Source: Candidatus Nitrosocaldus sp. (lineage in GTDB: Archaea; Thermoproteota; Nitrososphaeria; Nitrososphaerales; Nitrosocaldaceae). From it: a DNA stretch of 45,109 nt. The translations under genes and the position numbers were made by a program. Below the pieces are notes generated by a model. That model was not told the DNA's origin, searched no databases, and worked only from the letters and a program-made list of their open reading frames with translations. The DNA lies in contig JANWZS010000014.1 in the NCBI GenBank assembly GCA_025054855.1, positions 1 through 45,109 of the forward strand, given 5' to 3'. Positions 31,374 to 34,522 of this stretch are shown in pieces (positions within the stretch are counted from its first letter, which is position 1; each line of letters opens with the position of its first letter).

Positions 31374-32156
31374 TCATACATGCCCATGGAGCACAGACCC
31401 TATCACCCCTGCCACCATATCTATGGTACATCTATCGCCCCTTATACCTTTGGCACTGCTGCATCTCCTGTGCAGTGCATCGTACACTGCCCTCATCTGC
31501 CTCAACGTGAGCTGTGATGGTGCTAGGGGCTCATCCAGGGCAGCGTAGGTGAATGGTGCGCCGAGCAGTGTGCATAGAACCCTAGATGCCAGTCCATGCT
31601 CGCCCATGCAGAACGCTACCAGCCTCACACCACTACTACCTATCTTATCGTAGAGGGAGAGTATGCTCTCATTGTCATCTATACTCTTGGCCATGGTGAC
31701 CATCTTCACACTGCTGCTGTATTCTAGCATATCATGCATGATCCCAGCGAGGTCATCCCTGCTAGGTGTGCGGTTGAAGTCATGGTACGATACGAGTAGA
31801 TCACAGTCTAGTGCTCTCAGATGATCGTACAACTCCTCGCCATGATCACCAGTGAGGGTGCTGTACTCAACATCGAGCAGCATGGGTCTGAACGAGGCTA
31901 ATCTCTTCAAGATGATCAGCCTCTCAGCCTCACTCCCATCGAATACACCACCCTCACCCCTACTCCTGCACGTGAATACCATCCTATCCCTATGCTCCAT
32001 CACAGCATCGAGCATATCGCCTAGGGAGTTGATGCTGGAGTAGTCGAACCTCACCTCAACGATATCTGAGCCCTCGCTGAATGCCCTTGCTATATCCATG
32101 GCAAGACGCCTGCGATCTCTTGCCGGTACGCTCGTGCATATCTTACCCATGATCAT
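31374..32156 (-). CDS. aroD: 3-dehydroquinate dehydratase, type I
   Basis: Schiff-base dehydratase. Seen: DIVEVRFDYSS (EVRxD/E substrate Arg), the VFTCRSRGEGG strand-loop, YHDFNRTP, VKMVTMAKS containing the Schiff-base Lys, and FCMGEHGLASRV. 260 aa. ATG 32156 (ATG 32150 two codons later). It lies between the DHQ synthase and aroE genes. Confidence 0.95.
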   Translation of the reverse strand: MIMGKICTSVPARDRRRLAMDIARAFSEGSDIVEVRFDYSSINSLGDMLDAVMEHRDRMVFTCRSRGEGGVFDGSEAERLIILKRLASFRPMLLDVEYSTLTGDHGEELYDHLRALDCDLLVSYHDFNRTPSRDDLAGIMHDMLEYSSSVKMVTMAKSIDDNESILSLYDKIGSSGVRLVAFCMGEHGLASRVLCTLLGAPFTYAALDEPLAPSQLTLRQMRAVYDALHRRCSSAKGIRGDRCTIDMVAGVIGSVLHGHV

Positions 32157-32171
32157 TACATCAGTCTCCTG

Positions 32172-32230
32172 ATTATGGTGATGGTGAGGGCGATGAGAGG
32201 GCTGATGGTGATGGTGATGGTGATGGTGAT
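32172..32230. repeat. (GGTGAT)n hexanucleotide run
   Basis: Six or so TGGTGA units between the aroD start and the stop of the DHQ synthase gene. It is non-coding. Confidence 0.85.
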
Positions 32231-32234
32231 CTGC

Positions 32235-33365
32235 TCACTTCTCAAGTATGAACTCATCTACCTCTATGCCGAAGTGCCTCCCCCTGCTACCCTTTGCATA
32301 TACTAGCACCTCATCCCCTGCCTTGAGATCTGTAACAGATACAAGCCTCCCATCCCTGCCCATGAACCTTATCGTCTCTGCATTCTGTACTATTATGCTA
32401 CCCTCCTCCCTTGCACCATCAACCTCTATATCTGCTCTCACTAGCCTCATAGGTCTAGTCTCTATCTTGACCCTTCCTACGATGGCATCCCTGGCCTTCC
32501 CATCACTGCTCACTATAAGCACCTCATCCCCTGCCTCAAGCTCTGCAAGGTACTTGGTCCTGCCATCTGGCATGAGCGTGTAGCAGTGCACTGCCCCAGC
32601 GTTCACCCTGAATGGTCTAGGGGATGTGAACTCCGACCCTATAGCCTCATTGTGCATGAGGAACATGAAGTTTGCCCTGCTGCCTATCAGCATACCCTCC
32701 CCAACCTTGAGCATGGATGCTGTATCAACACATACCCTCTCGCCTACGCCAGAGTCCCTGACCTCCCTGACCACGGCATACCCCAACCTGAACTCCTTGC
32801 TCTGCATGTACACAAGGCTCTGCCTCACACCAGCCATATCCGAGGCCTCGAGGATGACCCCATCGACCCCTACCTGGAGCACGTTGAAGAGCGTTCTGAC
32901 CTCGCCAGCGTCCCTTGCATACGCAAGTATCTTCGTATTCATGCCCTGCAGCATCGCTATTATATTCTCTAGCGGTATTATCTTCCAGTCATCCGCATCA
33001 ACGAGCACAAAGTCTGCACCTTGCCTAGCGGCATCAACTATTAGGCTCTCATCACTCTTACCCTTCACCCTAACGAGCAGACCAGCGCTCCTACCACCAT
33101 CCTTCACCCTCCTGAGTTCATCCATGCTCGAGCATACATGCATATCAGCAGCATCGCTCCCATGTACAGTGATCAGGCCATCGAGTAGGTGGGATGGTAG
33201 CGATGATGGGTCTATGTAGATATACCTTATACCCTCCTCCTTGAGTTGTGATAGCAGTGACTCTATGCTATGCTTGGAGCCTACGGGCTTGACTATGAGC
33301 ATCCTCCTCATCCTGCTACCCTCCATGGCAGTCCCAGCAGCACTAGACCTGCTAACCTCAGCCAT
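32235..33365 (-). CDS. aroB': 3-dehydroquinate synthase II (archaeal, AroB')
   Basis: The archaeal route makes 3-dehydroquinate by oxidative deamination and cyclisation of ADH, the product of AroA'. Seen: FVLVDADDWKIIPLENIIA, LQVGVDGVILEASDM, CVDTASMLKVGEGMLIGS, FRVNAGAVHCYTLMPDGRT and two repeated KAGDEVL(I/V) modules. 376 aa, though the first ~20 residues are probably not conserved (an ATG at 33311 gives MRRMLIVKP). It overlaps the 3' end of the ADH synthase gene by 8 bp, so they are co-transcribed. Confidence 0.94.
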   Translation of the reverse strand: MAEVSRSSAAGTAMEGSRMRRMLIVKPVGSKHSIESLLSQLKEEGIRYIYIDPSSLPSHLLDGLITVHGSDAADMHVCSSMDELRRVKDGGRSAGLLVRVKGKSDESLIVDAARQGADFVLVDADDWKIIPLENIIAMLQGMNTKILAYARDAGEVRTLFNVLQVGVDGVILEASDMAGVRQSLVYMQSKEFRLGYAVVREVRDSGVGERVCVDTASMLKVGEGMLIGSRANFMFLMHNEAIGSEFTSPRPFRVNAGAVHCYTLMPDGRTKYLAELEAGDEVLIVSSDGKARDAIVGRVKIETRPMRLVRADIEVDGAREEGSIIVQNAETIRFMGRDGRLVSVTDLKAGDEVLVYAKGSRGRHFGIEVDEFILEK

Positions 33366-34152
33366 CCCCCCTTCTCACCTCCCTCAGAGCCTCCTTCACG
33401 CTTGCATCATCGAATATTATGCTTGCTAGAGCCCTTATCATCGCTTGGGGACTCTTATGCTGGAATATGTTCCTCCCGAACGTCACGCCTATGGCCCCAG
33501 CCTCCATAGCACCCTTGGTCATCTCGAGTACCTCCTCATCGCTGCTAGCCTTGGGCCCCCCTGCTATCACTATGGGTACGGGGCATCCCTTCACCACACG
33601 CCTGAAGCTGTCAGGGTCCCCAGTGTATACAGTCTTAACTATATCTGCACCAGCCTCTGCACCAACCCTGGCTGTATGCGCAACCACCTCTGGGTCGTGT
33701 GCATTCTTTATATTCTCGCCCCTAGGGTACATCATCGCCACGAATGGCATGCTCCATTCCATGCACTCACTTGCCACATGCCCAAGTTTGATGAGCATCT
33801 CAGGCTCCTCCTTGGAGCCTATGTTTATGTGCACGGATACACCGTCTGCCCCAAGCCTAACGGCATCCTCAACACTACCCATGAGTACCTTCCTGTTTGG
33901 TGCAGGGCCCAGGCTTGTGCTGCCCGAGAGGTGCACTATCACACCTACCCTGCTCGGCCTGGGCATGCTCTTGAGTATGCCCTTGTTCACAAGCACACTC
34001 GTCAATCCAGCATCCTCACACCTGTATATCATGCCATGGATATCATCTATCCCTGCTATGGGGCCCGAGGATATGCCATGGTCCATGGGGATGCAGAGCA
34101 TCTTCCCATCCCTGAGTATCCTGCTCAACCTAACCTCCCTCCCAGTGACCAT
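33358..34152 (-). CDS. aroA': 2-amino-3,7-dideoxy-D-threo-hept-6-ulosonate synthase (AroA')
   Basis: Fructose-bisphosphate-aldolase-like class I enzyme that starts the archaeal DAHP-independent shikimate entry. Seen: LCIPMDHGISSGP, GVIVHLSGSTSLGP, GVSVHINIGS, PFVAMMYPRG, ADIVKTVYTGD with the Schiff-base Lys, and GVTFGRNIFQH. 264 aa. It leads the operon: TTAAATA at 34174-34180 lies 25 bp before ATG 34152. Confidence 0.95.
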   Translation of the reverse strand: MVTGREVRLSRILRDGKMLCIPMDHGISSGPIAGIDDIHGMIYRCEDAGLTSVLVNKGILKSMPRPSRVGVIVHLSGSTSLGPAPNRKVLMGSVEDAVRLGADGVSVHINIGSKEEPEMLIKLGHVASECMEWSMPFVAMMYPRGENIKNAHDPEVVAHTARVGAEAGADIVKTVYTGDPDSFRRVVKGCPVPIVIAGGPKASSDEEVLEMTKGAMEAGAIGVTFGRNIFQHKSPQAMIRALASIIFDDASVKEALREVRRGDG

Positions 34153-34271: not shown

Positions 34272-34490
34272 CTAAGCTACTATCTCTGCTGTTGCGAACC
34301 TGTTGGCAACGTTGGATATCCTTATCTTGTACTCCTTGCCTATCTCTGCGCCCTGGACGAATATCACAAAACCCTTGATCCTTGCTACGCCATCGCCCTT
34401 CTTGCTCATCTCATCTATCCTGACTGTGTACTCCTGCCCCTTCTCCACTGGCTTAGGTCTTATATCGAAGCCTGTTCTTCTAGTGCTCGT
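34272..34490 (-). CDS. TRAM-domain RNA-binding protein with no canonical start codon
   Basis: The downstream part reads FDIRPKPVEKGQEY, then TVRIDEMSKKGDGVARIKG, FVIFVQGAEIGKEYKIRI and NVANRFATAEIVA, a clear single TRAM domain of the small archaeal kind (RNA binding or chaperone). In this frame a TAA at 34496-34494 precedes any ATG, GTG or TTG. The first in-frame start is GTG 34448, inside the conserved region. An ATG at 34509 and a TATA-like box (34523-34532) exist upstream, but that ATG is in another frame and hits TAG at 34482. A +1 shift at CAC-TAG-A would join it. A non-AUG start (ACG 34490 after GGAGGTG) or a sequence error are alternatives. Coordinates are given from ACG. Confidence 0.75.
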   Translation of the reverse strand, partial: TSTRRTGFDIRPKPVEKGQEYTVRIDEMSKKGDGVARIKGFVIFVQGAEIGKEYKIRISNVANRFATAEIVA

Positions 34491-34522
34491 ACGTTACACC
34501 TCCTACCATTATTACATCCACC

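Follow-up and report, generated by a model that had tools for sequence, protein, structure and literature searches.

How is a conserved gene translated when its frame offers no canonical start codon ahead of the domain that it encodes? This question is raised by a TRAM-domain gene on the minus strand of the 45,109-nucleotide stretch of DNA analyzed here (the window, which is contig C5 of the 1.56-Mb genome G000). Read from an ACG at 34490-34488, the gene comprises 72 codons and a stop and occupies 34490-34272, with its TAG at 34274-34272, and its frame lacks any ATG, GTG or TTG further upstream.

The TRAM gene and its upstream region

The frame is a confident TRAM gene. The TRAM domain (PF01938) was matched by hmmscan at 34448-34278 on the minus strand, corresponding to residues 16-72 of a 73-residue frame, with E=1.2e-13 and 51.1 bits against a Pfam cut-off of 21, so that a single domain spans most of the protein. 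The NCBIfam equivalog PyTRAM (NF053605) was also matched, scoring 86.4 bits where the cut-off is 85, and a further profile match, far under the whole-protein cut-off, was to the TRAM portion of an aIF2-beta family. By its profile matches the gene product is thus a predicted standalone RNA chaperone of the PyTRAM type, RNA binding and unfolding being known for its relatives (PMC6705878). No other TRAM gene was found in the window genome, and homologues were present in 53 of the 61 genomes searched.

Upstream of the domain, on the minus strand, the elements lie close together. A TATA-like box, TTTATATTT, at 34532-34524 is the same in all five congeners, and its center is about 24 bases from a Shine-Dalgarno (SD) sequence, AGGAGGTG, at 34504-34497, a distance that together with the usual archaeal TATA-to-start spacing suggests that the transcript probably starts near the SD. 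The duplex of this SD with the 3' end of 16S rRNA has a predicted energy of -13.8 kcal/mol. It is followed directly by a TAA at 34496-34494, which is in frame with TRAM and bars any start further upstream, then by CGT at 34493-34491, and then by the ACG that we propose as the initiation codon. Two other candidate start points exist: an ATG at 34509-34507, which opens a mini-frame (34509-34480, MVGGVTYEH) that ends with TAG at 34482-34480, and a GTG at 34448-34446, the first canonical codon in the TRAM frame. The preliminary description had this anatomy right on the sequence, including the open TRAM frame, the TAA, the first GTG and the mini-frame, with the GTG now placed at the edge of the domain.

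Downstream of TRAM, at 31374-34152 on the same strand, are three frames that resemble an archaeal shikimate (aro) operon; as read from the sequence, they would encode an aldolase-like synthase, a 3-dehydroquinate synthase II-like protein and a 3-dehydroquinate dehydratase-like protein.

Conservation of the start site within the genus

Comparison of the window with its five congeners (L002-L006) bears on each of the possible starts. The 17 bases AGGAGGTGTAACGTACG, which comprise AGGAGGTG-TAACGT-ACG and so include the SD, the in-frame TAA and the ACG, are identical at 17 of 17 positions in all six species. Four-fold sites of the gene differ between the window and the congeners at 9-12 of 24-25 positions (36-50%), and the 17 bases between the promoter and the SD carry 7-9 differences. 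Each of the six genomes of the genus contains the pattern AGGAGGTG-N6-ACG a single time, always at the TRAM gene, which argues that it is not due to chance.

It had been proposed that ribosomes begin at ATG 34509 and enter the TRAM frame by a +1 frameshift, and the two frames do adjoin in the window. This proposal does not survive the comparison with the congeners, in which the equivalent of ATG 34509 is either no ATG at all (GAAGAAGGATAGGAGG, GAGAAGAGGAGTAGGAGG) or is ATGAGTAG, with an immediate stop; moreover, ATG 34509 lies about 19 bases from the center of the TATA-like box and may not be transcribed. We rejected programmed frameshifting because its upstream start is not conserved, and regard it as extremely unlikely.

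Initiation further downstream is also very unlikely, whether at GTG 34448 or at another near-cognate codon, for example ATA. No canonical codon precedes this GTG in frame, and gene callers would select it, giving a protein of 58 amino acids, but it is GTC in three of the congeners and GTA in two, and a protein begun there would lose the conserved N-terminal PKP residues; it was therefore rejected as the start. The ATA is too distant from the SD.

Because a single base separates ACG from ATG, an error of sequencing or assembly, or decay of the gene, would give the same picture in one genome, and a one-base error had been put forward as an explanation. The probability of this is in our judgment negligible, since six species, each assembled independently, share the same ACG, SD and TAA, and ACG is found again in eight other families, making nine in all, while the protein remains 94-97% identical to its congeners despite diverged silent sites. 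Nor did alignment of the 5' region reveal a close relative with ATG where this genome differs: the close relatives all have ACG, and ATG appears at this position in other lineages (such as G076, locus L179). Initiation at ACG 34490, which the preliminary description had offered as a further possibility, is the reading that gains from conservation both across the genus and across families.

We also considered how often ACG opens frames elsewhere, using 400-kb samples of the congener G001 and of G015, the latter (61% GC) being too open-framed for a clean count. Among 90 frames with a strong SD in the G001 sample, 51 began with ATG, 22 with TTG and 17 with GTG, and the only ACG that opened a frame was that of the TRAM gene. 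At the level of sequence, ACG is demonstrated to be rare as a start elsewhere in the genus.

ACG at the TRAM start across the order

TRAM homologues were gathered from the order and the class, and their starts were placed by N-terminal homology together with the SD, with unclear cases read by eye; automatic choice of the start by the best SD alone was dropped, because glycine-rich GGA-GGA runs within genes led it astray. The family and genus codes used below (f, g) are the labels of the search tool. In the main group of 95 genes (KPVE type), the start is ACG in 46, ATG in 34, TTG in 13 and GTG in two. The 46 ACG-start genes belong to 16 genera of nine families: f1 (6 of 7 genes), f2 (2 of 2), f10 (24 of 34), f12 (3 of 3), f13 (6 of 7) and f14 (2 of 3), with one gene each in f4, f16 and f17. 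A start other than AUG, GUG or UUG, standing behind a good SD, is thus conserved in all of these genes, and ATG serves several lineages well (f3, f7, f8 and part of f10).

Several features of the alignment indicate that these ACG codons are start codons rather than internal threonine codons. In all nine families the ACG occupies the position at which homologues carry ATG, GTG or TTG, with comparable spacing from the SD. The synonymous codons ACA, ACC and ACT were not found at this position among the ACG-start representatives and the homologues examined, whereas the 76 internal threonine codons of the same genes comprise 25 ACC, 23 ACA, 18 ACT and only 10 ACG (13%). An upstream canonical codon in the open frame is absent in 33 of the 46 ACG genes. 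The position itself is fixed by locus L179 in G076, a species of another genus, which reads gacgctaggatgtgaaaag ATG AGTTTCGG, also written gacgctaggatgtgaaaag-ATG-AGTTTCGGACGAGG, where its relatives have ACG in the same context. That ACG is the start, with the ACG, the SD and the in-frame stop conserved together, is strongly supported by these sequence comparisons.

When the ACG label is mapped on the TRAM protein tree, it requires six changes (5-7 in bootstrap replicates, against a mean of 31.8 for shuffled labels), and the starred branches force at least four, on a tree that has few columns and many weak forks; ACG would accordingly have persisted for long periods, with more than one gain or loss. 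The retention of ACG in 46 genes points to a weak, probably regulated start and not to sequencing error.

Weak starts seem to be common for the TRAM gene generally. In part of f9 (L138, L203 and Nitrosotalea loci such as L058), the TRAM start is a GTG in the context GGAGGTGYAACG-GTG, so that an ACG stands directly before the start codon. A second candidate for an ACG start was encountered in family f10 (L276:8491-8742, equivalent to G015:C1:983491-983742), where a small frame with no Pfam match has its best SD directed to an ACG (GGGGAGGTGAGCGTT-ACG-TCAGAGGAG); it was not counted, because three codons ahead of this ACG there is an in-frame GTG, and its homologues are distant and present in 5 of 41 genomes of the family. 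TRAM-like stretches with in-frame stops were seen at G056:C1:1517321-1517524 (two TGA) and G060:C52:79897-80058 (one TAG) and are probably decayed copies. TRAM matches also lie inside very long open frames, one of 823 codons in G320:C27 (L222) and one of 664 codons at G046:C2:30370-30738, the latter with two matches in tandem.

Proposed initiation at ACG and its possible regulation

The explanation that best accounts for the whole is that the SD directs initiation by Met-tRNAi at ACG 34490, and that this weak codon is under selection, probably with low or tunable output; we hold this with considerable confidence. In this mechanism, the strong SD AGGAGGTG would set ACG 34490 in the ribosomal P site, the mRNA would be read unedited, and the initiator Met-tRNA (CAU) would decode the ACG despite the mismatch at the second position, giving a 72-residue standalone TRAM RNA chaperone with an N-terminal methionine. 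Among the tRNA genes examined, at 30 of 35 tRNA places with several intron-bearing ones uncalled, no initiator-like tRNA(CGU) was found, and the tRNA-Thr(CGU) looks elongator-like and is close to tRNA-Thr(UGU) and tRNA-Thr(GGU). One tRNA-Met(CAU) that was read has the GGG/CCC stem of the initiator type. In archaea aIF1 is reported to discriminate against noncanonical starts (PMC8211752), and initiation at ACG should therefore respond to the stringency of initiation.

An alternative is that a C-to-U deaminase edits the ACG in the mRNA to AUG, after which initiation would be ordinary. We know of no site-specific C-to-U editing of mRNA in archaea. Editing would suit the same DNA pattern, including the strong SD and the ATG of some lineages, and has a precedent in chloroplast rpl2, psbL and ndhD, where the DNA likewise has ACG at a conserved start position, but where AUG is made by C-to-U editing (PMC9845219), for which no counterpart is known in this archaeal group. 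It would also need a recognition element across the dissimilar leaders of f1, f2 and f10, to all of which only the SD and the ACG are common, and we consider it unlikely. Direct decoding of ACG by Met-tRNAi has its own parallel in near-cognate initiation in yeast, where ACG is workable with Met-tRNAi (PMC6898956), and the archaeal factors aIF1, aIF1A and aIF2 resemble their eukaryotic counterparts (PMC7531240). The archaeal case differs from eukaryotic ACG initiation in being SD-directed, in that the ACG is apparently the sole start of the gene, and in its conservation across families.

A comparator system closer in its organization is bacterial infC, encoding IF3, which according to the summary in PMC9845219 (citing Butler et al. 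1987) starts with AUU and is under translational autocontrol. Like infC, the TRAM gene is a single gene with a near-cognate start behind a good SD and a small RNA-binding product tied to translation, the tie in this case being suggested by similarity to the C-terminal TRAM-like addition that one aIF2-beta copy carries in halophilic and methanogenic archaea (PMC8576121). It differs in that the codon of infC is AUU, while here it is ACG, with a second-position mismatch, in an archaeon; and TRAM is an RNA chaperone that is not known as a proofreader of start codons. Its autocontrol is proposed by analogy. In domain and size class the protein is like other standalone archaeal TRAMs, namely TRAM0076 of Methanococcus maripaludis, which interacts with many RNAs and opens hairpins in 5'UTRs (PMC6705878), and the cold-shock TRAMs (PMC5572242), but the ACG start is new here; no passage on a start codon was found in these two papers.

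Likewise, no paper describing a conserved archaeal ACG start was found in the open-access literature. AUG, GUG and UUG are the start codons listed in a 2020 review on archaeal initiation (PMC7531240), and ACG goes unmentioned in a review of recoding in archaea from 2021 (PMC8211752). An ACG start that is kept across nine families, apparently for a single gene in each genome, would offer a natural test of start-codon selection by the eukaryote-like archaeal machinery. It has a practical consequence as well, as gene finders limited to ATG, GTG and TTG truncate or miss the TRAM gene across a large order that includes ammonia oxidizers.

What the weak codon is for may be reflected in the leaders. 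In f3, f4, f10, f12, f13, f14 and f17, a hairpin of 4-6 bp ends directly, or one base, before the SD, with stems such as AGCGC-GCGCT, AGTGT-ACACT, AGCGTT-AACGCT, AACGT-ACGTT and ACCG-CGGT. When 15 leaders were aligned, 94.6% of the cells were paired and three pairs showed double-sided changes, giving a covariation score of 0.41 compared with 0.00-0.16 for slid versions, and RNAalifold returned the same stem. Of 300 genomes, 28 carry the leader pattern AGGANRTGAAARNACGA, at 29 places in total; 26 of these fall in f10, f14 and f17, families that bear TRAM, where they coincide with the TRAM gene at the coordinates checked. The hairpin likely acts as RNA, although the same covariation would be expected of an inverted repeat in the DNA to which a regulator binds; a test for a second helix covering the SD gave no support. 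The hairpin is absent from the window genome and its genus and from f2, f11 and f16, where the short leader and the SD remain, and it cannot therefore regulate the window gene.

Taken with the unfolding of 5'UTR hairpins by TRAM0076, the TRAM-like addition on aIF2-beta and the autocontrol of infC from its AUU, these leaders suggest by analogy that expression is possibly kept low and autoregulated. Selection would keep the weak codon, probably for low, tunable output, a likely form of which would be a negative feedback in which abundant TRAM protein or high initiation stringency would reduce initiation at ACG, and in which the strong SD would rescue initiation when they are low. More broadly, Nitrososphaerales-type archaea may keep an ACG start for a single chaperone gene, to which many families would have added a hairpin abutting the SD and an infC-like autogenous control, with the chaperone sensing or melting its own leader; we put this forward tentatively, rating it somewhat below an even chance. 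A simpler alternative, which concerns the regulatory step and not initiation at ACG, is that the ACG sets a fixed low expression with no feedback from TRAM. For this a weak codon and a strong SD suffice, and the window genome, with no leader hairpin, is consistent with it, but in many ACG families the covarying hairpin abuts the SD, and the binding of RNA and unfolding of 5'UTR hairpins by standalone TRAM proteins (PMC6705878) suggests an active switch there. A fixed level comes fairly close to an even chance in our assessment.

A related leader stem (ACCG-CGGT or ATCG-CGGT) also accompanies a second TRAM paralogue in f10 (L166, L167, L198 and L171-L175), which starts with TTG or ATG, indicating that duplicated copies differ in start strength.
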